Shown here: one piece after another, positions 18,339 through 28,663 of the stretch | Layout of the letters: every line of letters starts with the position of its first letter | Numbering within the stretch: the stretch's first letter is position 1 | Origin: an uncultured Boseongicola sp. | Lineage (GTDB): Bacteria; Pseudomonadota; Alphaproteobacteria; Rhodobacterales; Rhodobacteraceae | Assembly (NCBI GenBank): GCA_938016355.1 | Contig: CALLWO010000023.1 | Location: 1 to 34,892, forward strand | Length of the DNA: 34,892 nucleotides | Direction: 5' to 3' | Made by a program: the position numbers and the translations under genes | Notes under the pieces: generated by a model | The model's database searches: none | Told to the model about the DNA's origin: nothing | Seen by the model: only the letters and a program-made list of their open reading frames with translations

Positions 18339-19165
18339 TTCAATATTGCATTTCGGAGCGCGTCATCTACTTCCGGGCGCAATCCGAACCAGCGCTCAAA
18401 TCCGGGCACGGCCTGATGCAACAACATGCCAAGACCATCGACGGTTCGGCAACCAGCCGCTCGAGCGTGAGCAAGAAGCTTGGTTTCCAGAGGTGTGTAT
18501 ACCAGATCGTTGACAACCGCGTCTTTTGAAATCGCATCCAGCGGCAAACGCATTTCCGGCTTTCCGACCATCCCCAGAGAGCTTGTGTTTACAATTGTCG
18601 CCGCGCCCTCAAACATATTTCCGGCTTGAACCCAATCAACAACGGTGACTTTCGTGCCAAATTCTTGGCGAAGCCCGTCCGCTCTGGTCTTCGTTCTATT
18701 CGTCAATCGAATTTCATTTACACCCACGTCGATGAGGGACGCGATTATCGCGCGTGCTGCGCCGCCTGCGCCGATAACAGCGGCCGGGCCGCTCGTTGGC
18801 TCCCAATCCGGTGCGCCTTGTCGCAAGTTTTCGACGAACCCGTAACCATCTGTGTTGTCCGCGTGAATCTTACCGTCTTTGCGAAAAATGAGTGTGTTTG
18901 CGGCCCCAATCAACGCCGCGCGATCCGTCACAAGGTCAGCGATCCCTAGAACCAGTTCTTTATGAGGGATCGTCACGTTCAAACCCACAAACCCCATCTT
19001 TGGAAGGGTCCGGATAACATCTTCCAAATCACCGGCGGCGACATTCATCGGTATATAATGGCCCCGGATTCCATACCGCCGTAGCCAATGGCCATGCAGC
19101 ATCGGAGATTTGGAATGGCCAATCGGGGATCCGATCACACCTGCCAGGGGAATAGCGTCCGTCAT
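18335..19165 (-). CDS. aroE: Shikimate dehydrogenase (NADP+)
   Basis: Reduces 3-dehydroshikimate to shikimate in aromatic amino acid synthesis. The 276-residue protein shows [14 protein letters not shown] (12-25) for substrate binding, NVTIPHKE with catalytic K69, NTDGYG with D106, and the NADP-binding GAGGAARAI (132-140) followed by [10 protein letters not shown] with the expected 2'-phosphate-binding Arg. The C-terminal [15 protein letters not shown] segment is present. Complete; overlaps maf and coaE by 4 nt each. Confidence 0.97.
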
Positions 19166-19758
19166 CCGTCCAAAGTGCCGCGCAATGTCAGATAGGACAA
19201 GAGCTCAAGCAGCGGGAGACCCAGTACGTTGAAATAATCGCCTTCTATCCGACTAAAAAGGCGCGCGCCTTCCTCTTCCAGCTTATAAGAACCAACGCTG
19301 TGCTGGATGCTGTGCCAGTTTCGCTCAACGTAATCAGCCAGGTACGCATCGGACGCCGTGTGCATCATAAGTCGAACTTGGCCTACATGCCTCCAGACTG
19401 GTTTCGCGTTTTCATAGATGACCGCTGCAGACAACAGCGCGTGGCGTTTGCCACGTAGCGCTGTAAGCTGCGACAGCGCTTCTCCCTTCGACTTCGGTTT
19501 CGAAAGAATTGACTCTTCAAAACTCAAAACCTGATCGCATCCAAGAACAAGCGCTTGAGGATGCTTCGCGGACGTACGCCGGGCCTTCGTTTCCGCAAGT
19601 GCGTCCGCGATGTCTCTGGCGCTTGCGCTCTCGTGGATGAGAGAATTTTTAATACTTTCTTCATCTATTCGGGCTGGAATAACATCGATAGAGACGCCTG
19701 CCTGGCGAAGAAGATTTGCCCGGATTTCGGATCCAGAAGCCAGGATGAGATCGCTCAT
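19162..19758 (-). CDS. maf: Maf family nucleotide pyrophosphatase
   Basis: Maf proteins hydrolyse non-canonical or modified nucleoside triphosphates (dTTP/UTP/m7GTP types by subfamily) and affect septation when overproduced. The 198-residue protein begins LILASGSEIRANLL (the family has ASxSPRR, so the Pro-Arg is Glu-Ile here), then LGCDQVLSFEESILSKPKS, the HSVGSYKLEEEGARLFSRIEGDYFNVLGLPL signature and a closing hydrophobic helix. Substrate subfamily is uncertain, but the deviation from SPRR resembles the YceF/m7GTP group more than the dTTP/UTP group. It is first in the minus-strand operon and starts at the edge of the candidate origin. Confidence 0.93.
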   Translation of the reverse strand: MSDLILASGSEIRANLLRQAGVSIDVIPARIDEESIKNSLIHESASARDIADALAETKARRTSAKHPQALVLGCDQVLSFEESILSKPKSKGEALSQLTALRGKRHALLSAAVIYENAKPVWRHVGQVRLMMHTASDAYLADYVERNWHSIQHSVGSYKLEEEGARLFSRIEGDYFNVLGLPLLELLSYLTLRGTLDG

Positions 19759-19811
19759 GGTGTGGACGGCCTTGTGGGTAACAACGTGTGAAGATTAAGC
19801 ACAAGTCGTGG

Positions 19812-19820
19812 TTATCCTCA
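19812..19820 (+). promoter_or_regulatory. DnaA-box-like 9-mer
   Basis: TTATCCTCA, one mismatch to TTATCCACA (position 7). Confidence 0.5.
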
Positions 19821-19840
19821 AACCAACGCTCGGTCGTCGG

Positions 19841-19854
19841 TGTTTCGTGAAACC
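19841..19854. promoter_or_regulatory. Shortened parS-like palindrome in the origin region
   Basis: TGTTTCGTGAAACC equals the parS palindrome with the central AC missing and the last base changed, so the GTTTC and GAAAC arms are 2 nt apart instead of 4. The altered half-site spacing makes ParB binding doubtful. It may be a decayed parS or chance. Confidence 0.3.
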
Positions 19855-19874
19855 ATGCTTATTTTGTCTGACGT

Positions 19875-19891
19875 TTATCCACCGTGCATAA
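19875..19891. promoter_or_regulatory. Pair of face-to-face DnaA-box-like 9-mers
   Basis: TTATCCACC on plus (19875-19883) meets TTATGCACG on minus (19883-19891), sharing one base and giving a near-perfect 17-nt inverted arrangement. Each is one mismatch from the degenerate box TTWTNCACA. Confidence 0.55.
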
Positions 19892-19941
19892 CGCTTGCCA
19901 ACAGGGTGTGTGCTCTTTGGTTATCGCGGATTTTCCCGAAG

Positions 19942-19950
19942 TTATCAACA
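19942..19950 (+). promoter_or_regulatory. DnaA-box-like 9-mer
   Basis: TTATCAACA, one mismatch to TTATCCACA (position 6). Confidence 0.5.
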
Positions 19951-20038
19951 GATATTGTTTGGCAAATTCTCCTATAAGATACTGTATCTATTCAGCAAAA
20001 ATCGTTCCCTTTTTATCTTCGCCGGCCTGTTCATAAAA

Positions 20039-20047
20039 TTATCCATA
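20039..20047 (+). promoter_or_regulatory. DnaA-box-like 9-mer
   Basis: TTATCCATA, one mismatch to TTATCCACA (position 8). A similar TTATCCATG (two mismatches) follows at 20083-20091. Confidence 0.5.
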
Positions 20048-20097
20048 GATGTATAGTCCGTGGGACAACTGACTAATTCCACTTATCCATGCCCTTA

Positions 20098-20139
20098 ACT
20101 ACAACATCATCTTTTCTTTTCTTCTTATATTAATTTAGG
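20098..20139. other. AT-rich tract, candidate DNA unwinding element
   Basis: A pyrimidine-rich CTTTTCTTTTCTTC run followed by TTATATTAATTTA, adjacent to the rightmost DnaA-like boxes and just before the hemJ ribosome binding site. It may serve as the duplex unwinding element and/or carry the hemJ -10 element. Confidence 0.45.
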
Positions 20140-20161
20140 AAGTCAGGAGGAGATCAAACCG

Positions 20162-20614
20162 ATGGCTGAGATACTTGGAACAATCTACCCTTGGGTAAAG
20201 GCGCTTCATGTGATCTCGGTGATCGCATGGATGGCGGGGTTGTTCTATCTTCCTCGGCTTTATGTGTACCACGCGGAACAAGTCGGTCAGGTGGGTGATA
20301 CACATACGCTGTTCCAGACGATGGAGTATAAGCTGCTTCGCGTCATCATGAATCCAGCGATGATTGCGACTTGGGTGTTCGGGCTTTTTTTGGTGGCGAC
20401 GCCGGGGGTCATTGATTGGTCTCAAATCTGGCCATGGACAAAGGCGGCGTCAGTCCTTGGGATGACCTGGTTCCACCATTGGTGCGGGCTGCGCCGAAAG
20501 GATTTTGCCGCTGGCAGCAATGCGCGTCCCGGGCGCTACTACCGATTGATGAACGAAGTTCCAACGGTGTTGCTGATTGTCATTGTTGTCTCTGTTATCG
20601 TTCGTCCCCTTTGA
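20162..20614 (+). CDS. hemJ: Protoporphyrinogen IX oxidase HemJ
   Basis: A 150-residue integral membrane protein with four hydrophobic segments, matching HemJ (formerly UPF0093/CopD-like), which oxidises protoporphyrinogen IX to protoporphyrin IX in many alphaproteobacteria and cyanobacteria. The conserved N-terminal WVKALHVISVIAWMAGLFYLPRLYVYH stretch carries K13 and the probable heme-ligand H16; the MEYKLLRVIMNPAM and WFHHWCGLRRKDFA segments follow. A strong AGGAGGAG lies 9 nt before the ATG. It is the first gene right of the candidate origin, followed by rho after a 120-nt leader. Confidence 0.93.
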   Translation: MAEILGTIYPWVKALHVISVIAWMAGLFYLPRLYVYHAEQVGQVGDTHTLFQTMEYKLLRVIMNPAMIATWVFGLFLVATPGVIDWSQIWPWTKAASVLGMTWFHHWCGLRRKDFAAGSNARPGRYYRLMNEVPTVLLIVIVVSVIVRPL

Positions 20615-20704
20615 TGCCCGTTGACTCGTGAGGGTCTGATCTCTAACTGTCAATTTCGGTAGCCGTCCTGGCTGCTTTGAACCTTCCAATTTGATTTATT
20701 GTCG

Positions 20705-20721
20705 TCCGGGATCTGCCCGGA
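20705..20721 (+). promoter_or_regulatory. rho: Hairpin immediately upstream of the rho ribosome binding site
   Basis: TCCGGG (20705-20710) pairs with CCCGGA (20716-20721) across a 5-nt loop, ending 2 nt before the AGGGAAA ribosome binding site (20724-20730). The 120-nt gap 20615-20734 otherwise shows only weak promoter matches (TTGACT at 20621 without a good -10). rho is autoregulated in E. coli through its leader; a similar role here is inference. Confidence 0.4.
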
Positions 20722-20734
20722 TCAGGGAAATTCC

Positions 20735-22003
20735 ATGACCGATCGTCTGAACCTATCTGAACTGAAAGTGAAGTCTCCTAAAGAACTTCTGTCTATGGCG
20801 GAAGAGCTGGAGATTGAGAACGCATCGACGATGCGCAAGGGCGAGATGATGTTCTCGATCCTAAAGGAGCGCGCAGAAGAGGATTGGGTGATCGGAGGCG
20901 AGGGCGTTCTCGAGGTGCTACAGGACGGTTTTGGGTTCCTGCGCTCGCCAGAGGCAAACTATTTGCCTGGTCCAGATGACATTTACGTATCGCCAGAGAT
21001 GCTGCGAAAATTCGCACTTCGTACAGGCGATACCGTTGAGGGTGTTATTCGAGAGCCGAACGAGAATGAGCGTTATTTCGCGATGACCAAAGTTGAGAAG
21101 ATCAACTTCGAAGATCCCGAGAAAGCGCGTCACAAGGTTAGCTTTGACAACTTGACGCCGCTTTACCCCGACGAGCGCATGAATATGGAGATTGAAGATC
21201 CTACAATTAAGGATCGTTCAGCGCGTATCATTGATCTTGTCGCTCCCATCGGTAAAGGACAGCGCTCACTTATCGTTGCTCCACCACGTACCGGTAAGAC
21301 GGTGCTCCTACAGAATATTGCCCACTCGATCGAAACAAACCATCCCGAGTGTTATCTGATCGTTCTGTTGATCGACGAACGGCCTGAGGAAGTGACGGAC
21401 ATGCAGCGCTCTGTGAAGGGCGAAGTGGTGTCCTCTACTTTTGACGAGCCCGCAACGCGACACGTCGCTGTAAGCGACATGGTGATTGAAAAGGCAAAGC
21501 GCCTGGTGGAGCACAAACGCGATGTTGTGATCCTCCTCGATTCAATCACACGCCTCGGACGGGCCTTTAACACCGTGGTGCCGTCCTCTGGTAAAGTTCT
21601 GACCGGTGGTGTGGATGCAAACGCACTGCAGCGCCCAAAGCGCTTTTTCGGTGCGGCCCGGAACATTGAAGAGGGTGGATCGCTTACAATCATTGCGACT
21701 GCGCTCATCGACACGGGCAGCCGCATGGATGAAGTGATCTTTGAGGAATTCAAAGGAACGGGCAACAGCGAGATCGTGTTGGATCGTAAGGTCGCGGACA
21801 AACGCGTGTACCCGGCGATGGATATCCTGAAGTCCGGCACGCGTAAGGAAGATCTTTTGGTCGACAAGGTCGATCTCCAGAAAACCTTTGTTCTTCGCCG
21901 TATCCTGAATCCAATGGGGACTACGGATGCGATCGAGTTCTTGATTTCGAAGCTCAAGCAAACAAAGACAAATTCCGATTTCTTCGATTCTATGAACACG
22001 TGA
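20735..22003 (+). CDS. rho: Transcription termination factor Rho
   Basis: The hexameric RNA-dependent ATPase that terminates transcription. From the ATG at 20735 it has 422 residues, the usual length. It shows an N-terminal [29 protein letters not shown] helix-extended domain, the RNA-binding cold-shock-like segment [23 protein letters not shown] (about 64-86), Walker A APPRTGKT (about 182-189), Walker [11 protein letters not shown] and the Q/R-loop region [22 protein letters not shown]. An in-frame start at 20699 would add 12 residues with no family support; AGGGAAA at 20724 favours 20735. Confidence 0.97.
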
Positions 22004-22005
22004 TT

Positions 22006-22023
22006 TATTGATTTAAATCAATA
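22006..22023. promoter_or_regulatory. mnmE: Perfect AT-rich palindrome with FNR/FnrL-type box before mnmE
   Basis: TATTGATTTAAATCAATA is a perfect 18-bp palindrome starting 3 nt after rho and ending 8 nt before the mnmE ATG. Its core TTGATTTAAATCAA (22008-22021) equals the FNR/FnrL consensus TTGAT-N4-ATCAA. It also overlaps an IHF-consensus match, AATCAATAGGTTA (22016-22028). So close to the start codon, binding would more likely repress than activate. Function is inference. Confidence 0.45.
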
Positions 22024-22031
22024 GGTTAGTT

Positions 22032-23309
22032 ATGGATACGATCTTTGCTCTCGCGTCTGCGAGAGGTAAATCCGGCGTTGCCGTCATCCGTGTCTCGGGT
22101 CCCGATGCCAAAACGGCATTAGGACATATGTGCACGATACCTGAGCCGCGCCGTGCTGCACTTCGACGGCTGAGCTACAAGGGCGATTTCCTCGACGAAG
22201 CGCTCGTCATCGTCTTTGATGCGCCGGGCAGCTTTACCGGCGAGGATGTTGTAGAGATTCATACGCACGGATCAAATGCTTCGGTGGCTTCTGTTCTCAC
22301 TGCGTTGGCAGATATTTCTGGATTGCGTCAGGCCGACGCCGGAGAGTTCACGCGCCGTGCTTTGGAGAACGAGCAGCTTGATTTGGCGCAGATCGAAGGA
22401 TTGTCTGACCTCATCGAAGCAGAGACGGATGCTCAAAGACGTCAGGCGTTGCGCGTGTTTTCCGGCGCGCTCGGAGATATCGCTGAATCTTGGCGATCGG
22501 ACCTCATTCGGGCAGCAGCATTGCTAGAAGCGACTATTGATTTTGCTGACGAAGAGGTGCCTGTCGATGTGCTACCGGAAGTTAAGCAGCTAATTGCAAA
22601 GGTCGACAAAGGCCTGAACGCAGAGATTGCAGGGTCGCGCGCAGCAGAACGCATCCGCGACGGGTTTGAGGTAGCCATTATTGGTCCTCCGAATATAGGG
22701 AAATCTACGCTTTTGAACGCTCTCGCTGGTCGAGAGGCCGCGATCACATCAGATGTGGCAGGTACAACCCGGGATGTGATTGAGGTTCAGTTGGATTTGG
22801 CTGGCCTGCCAGTGACTTTCCTGGATACGGCCGGAATTCGGCAGACGGATGACAAAGTCGAGAACATCGGGATAGAACGTGCAACGGAGAGAGCCGAGCG
22901 CGCAGACCTGCGCATTTTCTTGTTGGAGCGTTCGGGTGACGAGGCCGTGCTCAAAGGCCATAGCGACGATCTGAAACTTGTCGCAAAGTCAGACATAAAT
23001 GAAATTGGTGATATTTCCGCGCTGACGGGCCATGGCATCGATGATCTTATTGATAGAGTTACCGGCGTTCTCGAGCAGAAAGCGGCAGGTGCGGGCGTCG
23101 CGATCCGCGCACGACATAGGGCTGCAATGATCTCGGCTTCCGCCAGCCTGAACAATGTAAACGCGCTTATCTCAAGCGATCTCGCTGGACCCGAGATCAT
23201 TGCAGAAGAGCTAAGAGTGGCAATAAGGGCGCTGGATACCCTTGTGGGTCGCGTAGACGTCGAGCATGTGTTAGGTGAAATATTCGCAAGTTTCTGCATT
23301 GGTAAATGA
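22032..23309 (+). CDS. mnmE: tRNA modification GTPase MnmE
   Basis: With MnmG it makes the 5-carboxymethylaminomethyl (or aminomethyl) modification of wobble uridine 34. The 425-residue protein has an N-terminal folate-binding domain starting at [23 protein letters not shown], a helical domain, and an inserted G domain with G1 GPPNIGKST (218-226), the switch segment [14 protein letters not shown]3 DTAGIR (about 264) and a short G4 region. The C-terminus FASFCIGK carries the invariant Cys of the CxGK motif. The ribosome binding site is weak (TAGGTTAG) and the palindrome at 22006-22023 sits just upstream. It ends 3 nt before the annotated mnmG start. Confidence 0.97.
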
Positions 23310-23312
23310 GGG

Positions 23313-25187
23313 GTGTTTCACGTGAAACATCGTGATTTCGATGTCATCGTTGTCGGCGGCGGTCACGCTGGAACCGAAGCCGCACATGCGGCGGCGCGCC
23401 GTGGCGCTCGCGTCGGACTGATCACTCTCAAAAAAAGCGACATCGGCGTCATGTCCTGCAATCCGGCCATTGGCGGATTGGGCAAAGGCCACCTTGTTCG
23501 CGAAATTGATGCGCTGGACGGCGTAATGGGGCGTGTTGCGGACGCGTCTGGTATTCAGTTTCGCCTTTTAAACCGTCGCAAAGGGCCTGCTGTGCAAGGG
23601 CCGCGGGCTCAAGCCGACCGCAATTTGTATCGCGCCGCCATGCAAATAGAGATGACAAGAAGCGCTCTGATCGAAATTGTAGAGGGCGAGGTCACTGACC
23701 TTATTCAGTCCGGCGATGCTGTTAGCGGCGTTACACTGAATGGTGGGCAGGCACTCCATGCCGCCGCCGTTATCCTCACAGCCGGAACCTTTCTGCGCGG
23801 GATCATCCATATTGGCGACAGCTCCCGACCAGGCGGAAGAATAGGGGACAAGCCTTCGGTTCGGCTGGCGGAAAGGATTGAAGATTTCGGGTTGGACCTT
23901 GGTCGGCTTAAGACAGGAACGCCTCCACGCCTTGTATCGAAAACGATCGATTGGGAGTCCTTGGAAGAACAGCCCGGCGATGATGAGCCTGTGTTCTTTT
24001 CGTTCATGTCAAATAGTGTTCAGGCAAGACAGGTGTCTTGCGGAATTACGCACACCAATCCTGAAACACACGAGATCATTCGCCAGAACATTTCTCGCTC
24101 AGCTATGTATGGCGGCCACATTGACGGCGTTGGACCAAGATATTGCCCATCAATAGAAGACAAGATCGTTAGATTTTCAGAGAAGCCTTCGCATCAGATT
24201 TTCCTGGAACCAGAAGGGCTTACGAGCGACCTCGTCTATCCCAACGGGATTTCGACATCGCTGCCCGAGGACGTACAGCACGACTATGTTCATTCTATCG
24301 CGGGCCTGGAGCGCGCCGAGATTGCCCAACCAGGCTATGCGATTGAGTATGACTATGTTGATCCGCGCGCATTAACGGCTCACCTCCGACTGAAGGACGT
24401 TCAGGGTCTTTACCTTGCTGGCCAGATCAACGGCACAACAGGCTACGAAGAGGCCGCAGCCCAAGGGCTGGTTGCTGGCCTGAATGCGGCTGGCAATGCA
24501 CTTGGGTTAGAGGATGCGAATTTTTCCCGCGACACCTCCTACATTGGCGTAATGGTCGATGACCTAATCACAAAGGGTGTCACAGAGCCCTATCGGATGT
24601 TCACTTCCCGCGCGGAATTCCGACTGTCACTCCGGGCGGACAATGCAGACCAACGTTTAACTGCATACGGGAGTTCGTTGGGCTGTGTAGGAGAGGAGCG
24701 CTCGCGGTCTTTTCATAAGAAAATGCAATTGCTCAATGACGGCAAGGCGCTTTTGGACAAAACCCTCATTACTCCAAACGAAGCATCAGATGTCGGAATT
24801 CGGATATCCAAGGACGGTGCGCGCCGCACGGCGACCGAACTCCTTTCGTTTGCCGATGTCGAATTCGACACACTTTGCGCCATACGCCCGGAATTGTCTG
24901 ATGTTTCTATCGAAACGCGAGATCAGCTCAAACGTGACGCGCTCTACGCCAATTACATTGTGCGGCAACAGAGAGATGTCGAGGCGCTTCGCAAGGACGA
25001 AGCACACGAAATCCCAGATGGCTTTGATTTTGCGTCGCTCAACGGGCTCAGCAACGAACTACGCCAGAAACTGCTGACCATACGCCCTAAAACATTAGGG
25101 CAAGCTGGTCGTGTTGAAGGCATGACGCCTGCCGCATTGACGCTTATCCTGGCCAAAATCAAGCAAAGCACTCGGAAAAGCGCGTGA
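23313..25187 (+). CDS. mnmG: tRNA uridine 5-carboxymethylaminomethyl modification enzyme MnmG (GidA)
   Basis: The FAD- and NADH-dependent partner of MnmE. From the GTG at 23313 it has 624 residues: the FAD dinucleotide fold [20 protein letters not shown] (10-29), the [22 protein letters not shown] signature near 50, GLKTGTPPR-type (here [10 protein letters not shown]) near 200, and the second signature [24 protein letters not shown] near 370. The first six codons, MFHVKH, are encoded by a perfect parS site. An alternative GTG at 23322 has TGAGGGG 8 nt upstream, better spacing than for 23313, and would start MKHRDFDV; either is acceptable. It overlaps rsmG by 4 nt. Confidence 0.97.
23314..23329. 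promoter_or_regulatory. parS centromere site 1, inside the mnmG start
   Basis: TGTTTCACGTGAAACA, a perfect match to the 16-bp chromosomal parS palindrome bound by ParB. It overlaps the mnmG start codon and codons 2-6 (FHVKH), about 3.3 kb from the candidate origin and 3.3 kb from parB. Confidence 0.95.
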
Positions 25188-25807
25188 CTCAAGGCCTTCA
25201 GCACTTTCAAGCTGCCACAGATGTTTCACGTGAAACATTGGAGAAACTACAAATATACGCCGAACTCCTTAAAAAGTGGACGAAGCGCATTAATCTCGTG
25301 TCTCCAAGCTCAATTCCAAACCTTTGGAGCCGTCATTTTTTGGATTCTGCTCAGATGCTTTCAATCACACAGGTTGAGGGCGACTATTGGGCTGATTTGG
25401 GGAGCGGTGGGGGTTTTCCAGGAGCGGTGATTGCCATTATGCGGTCTGACGCGCCGAAGGCCAGAACCACATTGGTGGAATCTGATCAGCGCAAAGCAAC
25501 GTTCCTGCGGACAGTTGCAAGAGAAACCGGCATTGAGATGGAAGTGATCTGTGAGCGTATAGAGAACGTCTCGCCTCTAAACTGTGATGTGCTTACAGCG
25601 CGCGCGCTTGCTCCGCTCAATACGTTGTTGGAATATACGCAGCGCCATCGAGCGACGGGTGGAGCCGCTATGTTTCTAAAGGGCGAAAAGGCGATGGCCG
25701 AGGTTGCAGAAGCGCGAAAATCGTGGTCATTCGAATGCGAGAGATTTGGAAGCAAAACAGATCCCAATGCCAACATTCTATTGATCGGAGCGATTGAGAG
25801 TGTCTGA
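25184..25807 (+). CDS. rsmG: 16S rRNA (guanine-N7)-methyltransferase RsmG (GidB)
   Basis: Methylates N7 of G527 (E. coli numbering) in 16S rRNA; loss gives low-level streptomycin resistance in several bacteria. At 207 residues it fits the family. A helical N-terminus leads to [16 protein letters not shown] (about 29-44), the SAM-binding [15 protein letters not shown] motif (about 70-84) and the [17 protein letters not shown] motif (about 99-115). Residues 14-18 (VSRET) are encoded by the second perfect parS. It overlaps mnmG by 4 nt and parA by 8 nt from the favoured GTG. Confidence 0.96.
25222..25237. promoter_or_regulatory. parS centromere site 2, inside rsmG
   Basis: A second perfect TGTTTCACGTGAAACA, 1,908 bp from the first. 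Here it is read in another frame and encodes VSRET of RsmG instead of FHVK of MnmG. Confidence 0.95.
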
Positions 25808-26609
25808 CCCAACGCGCCCACCGGGCCCGAGAATTATCTCAATTACAAACCAAAAAGGCGGTGTCGGAAAGACAACGACGACGATCAATCTTGGCGCTGC
25901 CTTGGCGGATGAAGGCTTCAATGTGCTCATTGTCGACCTTGATCCTCAAGGTAACGCGTCAACAGGACTGGGCATTGAAGTCGACGACCGTGACTTTACG
26001 ACCTACGACCTTTTGCTTGAAAGCGCAGATCTGCAGGACGTTATCAAAACAACAAATGTAGAGGGCCTATTGATCGCGCCGGCGACCATTGACCTAGCCT
26101 CCGCTGACATCGAAATGATGGCGTCCGAAAAACGCAGCTTCTTGCTCTTTGATGCGCTTCGGCAGCCCAAAATGGATGTCTACGAGCTGGACTTCATCCT
26201 CATAGACTGCCCGCCGTCCCTTAGCCTTCTAACGGTAAATGCGATGGTAGCCTCCCATTCTGTTCTGATCCCTCTTCAGAGCGAGTTCTTTGCGTTAGAA
26301 GGGCTCTCGCAGCTGATGTTGTCGGTTCGTGAGGTTCGCCAATCTGCAAACAGCGATCTGCGCATCGAGGGTATTGTCCTGACGATGTTTGATGGCCGTA
26401 ACAATCTCAGCCTTCAAGTCGATGCCGATGCAAGGGAAACACTGGGAGAGCTCGTCTTTAAGACTGTTATCCCACGAAACGTTCGTGTATCGGAGGCTCC
26501 ATCTTTCGCCATGCCGGTAATTTCATATGATCCAGGCTCAAAAGGCAGCCAGGCCTATCGCGCTTTGGCACAAGAGATGGTAGAGAGACTGAAACAAACC
26601 GCATCATAG
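25800..26609 (+). CDS. parA: Chromosome partitioning ATPase ParA (Soj)
   Basis: The Walker-type ATPase that moves ParB-parS complexes apart over the nucleoid. From the GTG at 25800 it has 269 residues: deviant Walker A KGGVGKTT (19-26), LIVDLDPQGNASTGLG (about 43-58) and Walker B FILIDCPPSLSLLTVNAM (about 130-147). There is no long N-terminal HTH, so this is a chromosomal rather than plasmid P1-type ParA. GGAG at 25787-25790 lies 9 nt before GTG 25800 but only 3 nt before an in-frame TTG at 25794, which favours GTG. Overlaps rsmG by 8 nt. Confidence 0.97.
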   Translation: MSDPTRPPGPRIISITNQKGGVGKTTTTINLGAALADEGFNVLIVDLDPQGNASTGLGIEVDDRDFTTYDLLLESADLQDVIKTTNVEGLLIAPATIDLASADIEMMASEKRSFLLFDALRQPKMDVYELDFILIDCPPSLSLLTVNAMVASHSVLIPLQSEFFALEGLSQLMLSVREVRQSANSDLRIEGIVLTMFDGRNNLSLQVDADARETLGELVFKTVIPRNVRVSEAPSFAMPVISYDPGSKGSQAYRALAQEMVERLKQTAS

Positions 26610-26618
26610 GGTAGGCCG

Positions 26619-27530
26619 ATGGCACAGGCAAAATCAGATCGTAGAGGACTCGGCCGAGGGCTTTCGGCGTTGATGGCTGACGTCGATCCCGTTCCAGCGC
26701 GTTCCGGCACAGATGCAAAGGCCCGCAAGTCGGAAACTTTAATCCCGATCGCCCGTATTTCCCCAAATCCGGATCAGCCGCGCAGAACCTTTACCGAAGA
26801 CGCGTTAAGCGAACTGTCCGCATCGATCAAAGAAAAAGGCATAATTCAGCCGCTTATTCTTCGTCGTAATCCACGGGATGCGGACGGGTATGAGATCGTT
26901 GCCGGCGAACGGCGGTGGCGCGCCGCGCAGCGCGCCCAGCTTCACGAAGTGCCCGCAATTGTCCGCGAACTGGACGATACCGAAGTTCTTGAAATTGCTA
27001 TTATCGAGAACATTCAGCGGGCTGACCTGAACGCGGTGGAAGAGGCCGCAGGTTATCGGCAGTTGATGGATCGCTTTGGCCATACACAGGAAAAACTTGC
27101 CGAAGCTTTGGGGAAAAGCCGGAGCCACATCGCGAACCTGATGCGCCTTCTCACTTTACCGGAAACCGTGCTTGAGATGCTTCGCGACGGCCGGTTATCC
27201 GCCGGACATGCGCGCGCGCTAGTAACGTCCAAGGATCCGACTGCCCTCGCTGAACACGTAGTGAAAAAGGGTCTATCCGTTCGTCAAACCGAAGCGCTGG
27301 CAAAGAATGGTGCGGGTCCGAAACCTACAAACCAGAATGAGGCCCCAGTCAAAGACGCCGACACGAAGGCATTGGAGAAAGATCTGGCGGCCGCACTTGG
27401 AATGAAGGTGGCCATCGACCATCCCGGCGGCTCTAAATCAGGCAGCCTGACTATTCGATATAAAGATTTGGACCAGCTTGACGAAATTTGCCGACGGCTC
27501 TCGGTAACAACGGGTGCGGGTGAGATTTAG
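26619..27530 (+). CDS. parB: Chromosome partitioning protein ParB (Spo0J)
   Basis: A CTP-dependent DNA clamp that loads at parS and spreads. The 303-residue protein has the N-terminal GLGRGLSALM segment (10-19) that stimulates ParA, the CTP-binding domain with GERRWRA (96-102) and ENIQRADLN (130-138), an HTH with LGKSRSHIANLMRLL (about 163-177), the SAGHARALV segment, and a C-terminal dimerisation domain (about 250-303). It follows parA by 9 nt. Its last 4 nt overlap the end of the convergent hemW. Confidence 0.97.
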   Translation: MAQAKSDRRGLGRGLSALMADVDPVPARSGTDAKARKSETLIPIARISPNPDQPRRTFTEDALSELSASIKEKGIIQPLILRRNPRDADGYEIVAGERRWRAAQRAQLHEVPAIVRELDDTEVLEIAIIENIQRADLNAVEEAAGYRQLMDRFGHTQEKLAEALGKSRSHIANLMRLLTLPETVLEMLRDGRLSAGHARALVTSKDPTALAEHVVKKGLSVRQTEALAKNGAGPKPTNQNEAPVKDADTKALEKDLAAALGMKVAIDHPGGSKSGSLTIRYKDLDQLDEICRRLSVTTGAGEI

Positions 27531-28663
27531 GTCAATAGTTCCTTAAGTATTGTATTGAGCAGCGGGCGCCCGGCGCGCGTTGTTCGAATATACTTGTCAT
27601 CAGCTTCAAGCAAATCGTTTTCAGCTAAACTATTGATATAAATAACTTTATCGTCACAATTCTTTACAAGATCACGCTCGACACCCTCTCGCAGGCGAAG
27701 CCCCATCAGCAATCGTTCGGTTTTGTGGTCTGAAAGAGAAATCATTTCGCGAGTGTCGCTGCCAGCCTTTGTGCCAACGGCAGACAGCCATTCAGAGGGC
27801 GCATCAACGGCCTTTGTTGCGTGTCGATGACCATCGATCGACAACCGACCATGGGCGCCGGGGCCAACGCCAACCCAATCGCCGCCACTCCAATAGATCA
27901 TGTTATGACGAGATTCAGCCTCAGGTTTTGCGTGATTTGAGATCTCGTAAGCTGGCATCGACGCTGCTTCTGTCATGTCTTGTGTCAGGTGAAACATGTC
28001 AGCGCCCAGGTCGTCGTCCGGCAACCCGCGAAGCAATCCGCGCTCGAACCGATCCCCAAACGCCGTGCCACCTTCAATCGTCAATTGGTATAGCGAAATG
28101 TGGTCAGCCGCGAGCGCCAGCGCGGCATTCAATTCAGATTCCCAATCCGCTAACGACTGGTTCTGTCGCGCGTAAATCAAGTCGAACGACACTCGCCCAA
28201 AGGTTTCCCGCGCCAACTCAAACGCCCGACGACCTTCCTCCGCTGAATGCAAACGCCCCAGCGCCTTCAGATCGGGGTCGTTCAAGGCCTGAAGGCCGAC
28301 GGATACCCGGTTAATGCCTGCCGACCGGAATCCATGAAACCTAGCGGCCTCAACCGATGTCGGATTGGCCTCAAGTGTGATTTCAATGTCGTTTGAAAAG
28401 GTCCACGCGGTTTGCGCGGCATCGATCACGCGGGCCACAGATTTTGGCGCCATTAAGCTCGGTGTGCCGCCGCCAAAAAAGATACTATCAAGCTGCCGCG
28501 GGCCGGTAACTTGGGCATAACGCTCAATTTCCGAGACGAGGGCGTTGGCCCAAACGTCGTGATCGACGCTCGCTGCAACATGACTATTAAAGTCGCAATA
28601 GGGACACTTCGCTTGGCAAAACGGCCAATGGACATAAAGCCCGAAACCACGGTCCGTGTTCAT
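27527..28663 (-). CDS. hemW: Heme chaperone HemW (radical SAM, HemN-like)
   Basis: A 378-residue radical SAM protein. The cluster motif is C16-x3-C20-x2-C23 in HWPFCQAKCPYCDF, followed by FFGGGTPSLM (about 63-72) and EANPTSVE (about 100-107). The length and the short N-terminus without the extra HemN motifs indicate HemW, which binds heme and inserts it into target proteins, rather than coproporphyrinogen dehydrogenase HemN. It is last in the rph-rdgB-hemW operon and overlaps rdgB by 4 nt. A 2-mismatch parS-like sequence lies inside it at 27981-27996. Confidence 0.93.
   Translation of the reverse strand: MNTDRGFGLYVHWPFCQAKCPYCDFNSHVAASVDHDVWANALVSEIERYAQVTGPRQLDSIFFGGGTPSLMAPKSVARVIDAAQTAWTFSNDIEITLEANPTSVEAARFHGFRSAGINRVSVGLQALNDPDLKALGRLHSAEEGRRAFELARETFGRVSFDLIYARQNQSLADWESELNAALALAADHISLYQLTIEGGTAFGDRFERGLLRGLPDDDLGADMFHLTQDMTEAASMPAYEISNHAKPEAESRHNMIYWSGGDWVGVGPGAHGRLSIDGHRHATKAVDAPSEWLSAVGTKAGSDTREMISLSDHKTERLLMGLRLREGVERDLVKNCDDKVIYINSLAENDLLEADDKYIRTTRAGRPLLNTILKELLT
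27981..27996. promoter_or_regulatory. Degenerate parS-like site inside hemW
   Basis: TGTGTCAGGTGAAACA differs from parS at two of 16 positions (4 and 8), leaving the right half-site intact. On the coding strand it encodes FHLTQ. The position-8 change breaks the central CG, so binding would be weakened. Possible accessory site; not proven. Confidence 0.35.

Follow-up and report, generated by a model that had tools for sequence, protein, structure and literature searches.

Chromosomal origins of alphaproteobacteria are usually found next to hemE. The origin of Caulobacter crescentus, Cori, is placed between hemE and COG1806 in passages of two studies (PMC1914354, PMC4285127). For Rhodobacteraceae, the family to which the DNA described here belongs, passages of an earlier survey report oriCs of 101 members that were predicted with Ori-Finder and chosen by DnaA boxes, a local GC minimum, the GC-disparity minimum, and nearness to parAB (PMC6699656). 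The basal unwinding system (BUS) of Bacillus subtilis is composed, in passages of three papers, of DnaA boxes, a spacer, and DnaA-trios; DnaA held at the boxes grips the trios, whose consensus is 3'-GAT-5', on one strand (PMC8287927, PMC6669920, PMC10721633).

The window, the whole stretch of 34,892 bp analysed here, corresponds to contig C23 in a draft assembly that totals 2.66 Mb (2,661,403 bp), is 80% complete, and is divided into 255 contigs. Its HemJ has its nearest named relatives in Rhodobacteraceae or Paracoccaceae, for example Nioella and Maritimibacter, with 72–76% identity among the best matches (best 80 of 590 stretches). The genes of the left part are ordered Smr, MltA, Tim44-like, fxsA, secB, dnaQ-like exonuclease, coaE, aroE, and maf (minus strand). 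After a gap of 403 bp, the right part continues with hemJ, rho, mnmE, mnmG, rsmG, parA, and parB (plus strand). The gap, at 19759..20161, is delimited by maf (19162..19758, minus strand; Pfam PF02545, E 8.1e-45) and hemJ (UPF0093; 20162..20614, plus strand; Pfam PF03653, E 1.2e-60), and rho follows at 20699..22003 on the plus strand (Pfam Rho domains). As stated in the preliminary description of this DNA, the gap is the only long gene-free stretch and its flanking genes face outwards. It is the longest between the 32 open reading frames taken as genes, with a runner-up of 125 bp, and its GC content is 0.42 (42%) compared to 0.54 for the whole window. Neither tRNAs nor Rfam matches were found within the window.

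The gap resembles Cori, as presented in passages of the Caulobacter studies, in being intergenic, of similar size, and endowed with boxes unlike TTATCCACA and an AT-rich part (PMC1914354, PMC4285127). Unlike Cori, it is flanked by maf and hemJ instead of hemE. The hemE gene of the same genome is located on another contig (G000:C181:11049-12074). It is also distant from hemJ and rho in family relatives, namely in 31 of the 34 with an identified hemE; G004, G017, and G033 are the exceptions. The gap also differs from Cori in that neither the CtrA pattern TTAA-N7-TTAA, at up to one mismatch, nor the CcrM site GANTC occurs within it, and the presence of either kind of site was rejected for this reason. 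The zero count of GANTC in the gap is not significant, because 51 sites per 34.9 kb predict approximately 0.6 per 403 bp. Across the window (1–34892) GANTC is depleted, with 51 sites compared to 181 expected from shuffles, as might be expected for a CcrM-methylating alphaproteobacterium.

DnaA-box-like sites and GC skew at the maf–hemJ gap

The maf–hemJ gap is very probably the chromosomal origin, oriC, as the preliminary description proposed; the cluster of DnaA boxes, the skew minima of relatives, and the enrichment of boxes upstream of hemJ argue for this assignment. Sequence alone could hardly make it firmer. Its 9-mers were compared to TTATCCACA on both strands and counted by mismatches. 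The gap contains five sites with one mismatch (four on the plus strand, one on the minus strand) and five with two (three plus, two minus), and a perfect TTATCCACA is absent from the entire window, in agreement with the four to six imperfect box-like 9-mers on both strands described before. Five of the seven sites of the window with at most one mismatch are in the gap. At up to two mismatches, the gap holds ten sites, and the best non-overlapping 403-bp stretch of the window holds five. The draft genome contains 293 sites with at most one mismatch in 2,661,403 bp, and therefore approximately 0.043 (0.04) are expected in the gap, where five form a cluster beyond chance. For the gap, the Poisson probability of at least five sites is about 1e-9; multiplied by the number of such stretches, it becomes about 8e-6. 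No 403-bp stretch with more than two sites of at most one mismatch was found in 40 origin-free 20-kb samples (800 kb) from each of two relatives.

HemJ matches were present in 52 of 61 genomes, and loci were taken from the best 30, the window's own included. The 26 of these with maf were scanned for boxes, and 24 were aligned, two being left out for a gap of 1.2 kb. The set of named relatives comprises 80 loci, the best 80 of 590 stretches, in 67 of which maf is divergent from hemJ and within 600 bp of it; maf is farther away in three and absent from the locus in ten. In these best 80 of 590, sites with at most one mismatch number 209 in the 460 bp upstream of hemJ, a count that uses all 80 loci though L139 has just 206 bp upstream. 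The remaining 461.5 kb contain 103, which corresponds to a 25-fold enrichment upstream of hemJ.

Locus L180, titled as a Verrucomicrobia MAG, has a rhodobacterial maf–gap–hemJ–rho arrangement with an element of 30.7 bits (described below), and is probably a binning error. Five of 36 family relatives, G002, G009, G011, G020, and G025 (L077–L080, L082), have only a remote HemJ match of 26–30% identity, and in them rho follows maf at the origin. The incomplete genomes G028 and G033 have no HemJ match.

The places of single boxes were compared among 64 relatives, which were drawn from the best 80 of 590 by a score above 15.3 bits for the conserved element described below and by sufficient upstream DNA; L137 was left out, as it shares a contig with G024. 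A box with at most two mismatches within 5 bp of the same offset was counted, with a mean background of 6.8 relatives. Closest to maf, the minus-strand box TTACCCACA (19773..19781, one mismatch) is matched in 10 of 64 relatives, a count close to background. The plus-strand site at 19795 (two mismatches) has none in the 64, and the offset of TTATCCTCA (19812..19820, plus strand, one mismatch) occurs in one and is not shared. Counts near background were also obtained for TTATCCACC (19875..19883, plus strand, one mismatch; 8 of 64), whose alignment columns contain box-like bases in several relatives, and for the minus-strand site at 19883 (two mismatches; 11 of 64). Only the offsets of 19942 and 20083 are clearly shared among the ten sites of the window. 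The former, TTATCAACA (19942..19950, plus strand, one mismatch), recurs in 21 of 64 relatives when two mismatches are allowed and in 16 when one is, and the latter, TTATCCATG (20083..20091, plus strand, two mismatches), which abuts the conserved element, in 29 and 14, respectively. The minus-strand site at 20028 (two mismatches) is matched in 0 of 64, TTATCCATA (20039..20047, plus strand, one mismatch) in seven, at background, and the plus-strand site at 20095 (two mismatches) in two. A minus-strand box near offset −43, present in 41 of 64 relatives, has no counterpart among the sites of the window. Single boxes thus turn over among the gaps of relatives. The conservation of the 9-mers, suggested earlier as a check, holds for their 25-fold enrichment in the best 80 of 590 loci, but the places of single boxes are only partly shared.

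The imperfection of all boxes had been taken as a sign of either a low-affinity, cooperative origin or a box consensus particular to this lineage. In the latter case, the DnaA of the lineage would prefer a different 9-mer, for which the imperfect boxes would be perfect, and the lack of a perfect TTATCCACA in the window is what this would predict. However, the most enriched 6-mers of the 64 relatives' gaps, determined motif-free, are TTATCC, TATCCA, TCCACA, and CCACAG, and the lineage therefore has the usual consensus for its boxes. Perfect TTATCCACA occurs in 6 of 25 relatives' gaps, the other 19 being without it like the window. The DnaA of the same genome, a protein of 451 aa encoded on contig C1, carries SLPEIGRRFGGRDHTTVMH, the usual recognition helix, which resembles that of the E. 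coli protein. We rejected a different consensus on the k-mers of the 64 gaps and the usual DnaA helix, and regard it as extremely unlikely. The low-affinity, cooperative origin is a plausible reading of the boxes. The Caulobacter origin likewise depends on boxes deviating from TTATCCACA, according to passages of one study (PMC4285127).

GC skew was measured by sampling in relatives G003 and G013, since the genome of the window is too fragmented. In G003 (one contig of 3.56 Mb, 40 samples), the cumulative minimum is at the 3.42-Mb sample, the 3.51-Mb sample is positive, and the orthologous maf–hemJ gap is at approximately 3.477 Mb. In G013 (contig of 4.33 Mb), the minimum is the 1.08-Mb sample, the 1.19-Mb sample is positive, and the orthologous gap is at approximately 1.181 Mb. 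The maxima are at the 1.53-Mb (G003) and 3.35-Mb (G013) samples, and halfway round circles of the contigs' sizes, the opposite points would be at about 1.70 and 3.35 Mb; the G003 maximum is thus approximately 0.17 Mb from its opposite point. The G003 curve is noisy near the origin, as the 3.33-Mb sample is positive and the samples from 1 to 0.54 Mb show both signs, mostly near zero. Inside the window, the gap separates a mostly negative skew, which begins at about 13 kb, from a positive one that extends to about 24 kb. The sampled minima at the orthologous gap of both relatives bear out the skew check that was recommended with the first assignment.

DnaA boxes are also found at regulated promoters and at titration sites. 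The cluster could accordingly regulate maf or hemJ, or titrate DnaA, and replication could start at another place, such as dnaA. The coincidence of the gap with the skew minima of two relatives makes this very improbable. Furthermore, among the 100 of the 293 genome sites that were listed, no other 403-bp stretch contains more than two, and the dnaA match at C1:38768 is more than 3 kb from any site with at most one mismatch. An origin at dnaA was rejected for this lack of nearby boxes. The location of the maf–hemJ gap, its box enrichment, and the relatives' skew minimum are direct observations, and we regard the origin as an ordinary representative of a known type.

The preliminary description placed parS and parAB near the gap, as found here. 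Four matches with up to three mismatches to a 16-mer that we take to be the parS motif were found, compared to 0.16 expected. Two of them, both on the plus strand, are free of mismatches: one is at 23314..23329, at the start of the mechanically called mnmG reading frame, and the other at 25222..25237, inside rsmG, 38 bp into the gene. The plus-strand genes parA (25794..26609; Pfam AAA_31, ParA-type ATPase) and parB (26619..27530; Pfam ParB_N, HTH_ParB, and ParB_C) occupy 25794–27530. Two parS sites and parAB within about 7 kb of the gap, a directly observed arrangement, would fit a role in origin segregation.

Unstable DNA and a conserved element next to hemJ

The AT-rich tract reported beside the boxes corresponds to easily melted DNA, as no other 100 bp of the window are less stable than 20037–20137, and 19920–20020 rank fourth. 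Within the former, a very unstable duplex at 20097..20137, whose 40-bp nearest-neighbour stability (z 4.3) is the second lowest in the window, is a candidate DNA-unwinding element. Other very unstable AT-rich spots are at 27612–27672, near the 3' end of a HemN-like gene, and at 21978–22038, around the rho–mnmE junction. The AT-rich middle of the gap contains a weak IHF-like site (19975..19987, plus strand), which by eye agrees with the consensus at 6 of 9 positions. In the 64 relatives, IHF-like matches are concentrated near the offset of this site, with 33 forward-strand matches of at least 8 of 9 positions in the bins from −130 to −100 ahead of the element, and the alignment of relatives contains a shared block, ttTAAc..ttTgtt, near the IHF-like offset. 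The Cori IHF site TAACGCTCTGTT, as given in passages of the Caulobacter studies, resembles this block (PMC1914354, PMC4285127).

The alignment of 24 gaps contains, besides box-like blocks, a strongly shared block just before hemJ, CCTACA.cA.CAtCATCtTTT. This conserved edge element, GCCCTTAACTACAACATCATCTTTTCTTTTCTTC at 20091..20124 on the plus strand, was missed by the preliminary description and is, judging from the alignment and matrix scores, well conserved. Its family consensus is about CCTACAnnATCATCATCTTTTC. In a search with a 34-position weight matrix, from whose training the window was excluded, the element scores 30.4 bits, compared to 7.8 bits for the next non-overlapping site of the window and 15.3 bits for the best site in 800 kb of G003, a null derived from 40 samples of this one relative. 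Scores above 15.3 bits within 120 bp upstream of hemJ were obtained for 66 of 80 loci (best 80 of 590), a count that includes L137, whose sequence was in the matrix training, and perhaps other such loci. The 64 relatives were picked by element score and therefore provide no independent test of the element. The 14 of the best 80 of 590 loci below the null comprise, by their titles, Pseudoroseomonas (L202), Roseococcus (L206), and Roseomonas (L207), an alphaproteobacterial MAG (L205), and Amaricoccus (L203), as well as L159 and L173, in which hemE is inserted, and L144, L152, L164, L165, L166, L177, and L193, with 1.4 to 15.0 bits.

The element is preceded by a DnaA box and continues into pyrimidine-rich, AT-rich, and very unstable DNA. 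In 53 of 64 loci, a box with at most two mismatches is no more than 5 bp away from offset −13, and its sequence is frequently TAATCCACA or TTATCCACAGGCC. In the copy of the window, CTACA at 20099 is followed by two ATC repeats (20106–20111). In the titles, abstract beginnings, and passages covered from the open-licence PMC literature, no description of the element or of a maf–hemJ origin was found. The main text of the survey of 101 origins mentions neither hemE nor maf, and its passages describe no edge element (PMC6699656). The element is the part of this origin with some novelty, and we do not claim that it is unpublished.

Being located 21–64 bp upstream of hemJ in the loci above the null (best 80 of 590), the element could be a promoter or 5'-leader control of hemJ, outside origin function, with the rest of the gap still serving as oriC. 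The weak matches where hemE intervenes (5.3 bits in L159, 10.6 bits in L173, at most 3.1 bits in G004, L019) agree with such a role. However, in all five loci that contain maf and rho without a close hemJ, the best match of the locus is in the maf–rho gap. These five family members score 33.9, 21.3, 20.2, 18.4, and 10.8 bits, four of them above 15.3, and the same gaps contain one to five boxes each, with none elsewhere in the locus. The presence of both element and boxes in a maf–rho gap without a close hemJ therefore speaks for the origin. A sixth genome with rho, G033 (L084), has neither a close hemJ nor maf in the locus, and its best score of 14.4 bits is uninformative. The box clusters of L159 and L173 are upstream of hemE, with the weak match just past the last box, and weak sub-null matches upstream of hemE were also found in other families (10.1 bits in L032, 8.0 and 13.1 bits in L033, 1.8 bits in L035). 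In the family member G004, where hemE precedes hemJ, boxes are upstream of hemE and no element match exceeds 3.1 bits. We rejected control of hemJ as improbable, mainly on the five maf–rho loci; this rejection is less certain than the assignment of the origin, because the hemE cases yield only sub-null matches.

As a part of the origin, the edge element is possibly an unwinding module similar to the DnaA-trio arrangement of BUS, for which a DnaA box, a spacer of at most 16 bp, and at least three trios with a middle A are needed. It shares with BUS, as described in passages on the latter, the order of box, short spacer, trinucleotide-rich tract, and unstable DNA (PMC8287927, PMC6669920, PMC10721633). 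Box and tract are shared among relatives. Unlike in BUS, the shared repeat is ATC on the plus strand, which is 3'-TAG-5' on the other strand and not 3'-GAT-5'. A consensus trio would result only from the CTA before the ATC repeat, and ATC keeps the required middle A. The repeat may be a variant trio, belong to another register, or be bound by a different protein. The ATC ATC TTT of the window, whose element has just two ATC repeats, would give three middle-A trios on the other strand, but register and strand are a matter of reading, and T-rich DNA fits easily. It is possible, if rather doubtful, that Rhodobacteraceae origins use a lineage-specific unwinding code, in which CCTACAnnATCATCATCTTTTC follows the last box and the trios are 3'-TAG-5' instead of the 3'-GAT-5' of Bacillus. 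The DnaA of the family would then grip a different base pair at this position, or another origin protein would bind the tract.

Putative initiation mechanism and its meaning

From the arrangement of these features, we infer the binding of DnaA, IHF, and ParB, the order of events, and the use of the element as the place of strand opening. ATP-DnaA would cooperatively occupy the spread of mostly one-mismatch boxes, and an IHF-like bend in the AT-rich middle would join the boxes of the left, maf-proximal side with those of the right. DnaA anchored at the 20083 box would extend over the element at 20091–20124 onto one strand. The unstable pyrimidine-rich DNA before hemJ would thereby be opened by DnaA, followed by helicase loading. 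ParB may spread from the two parS sites 3–5 kb away and help to separate the copied origins. The conservation of the element among relatives is observed directly, and its function in this scheme is conjectural.

The analysis provides a base-level map of a Rhodobacteraceae origin that is independent of hemE, the landmark relied on in other Alphaproteobacteria. Used in combination with maf, hemJ, and rho, the element could aid the finding of origins in fragmented genomes, with the qualification that 14 of 80 loci (best 80 of 590) are without a clear match. Should the element prove to be where unwinding occurs, it would represent a natural variant of the DnaA-trio rule, testable by a few base changes.
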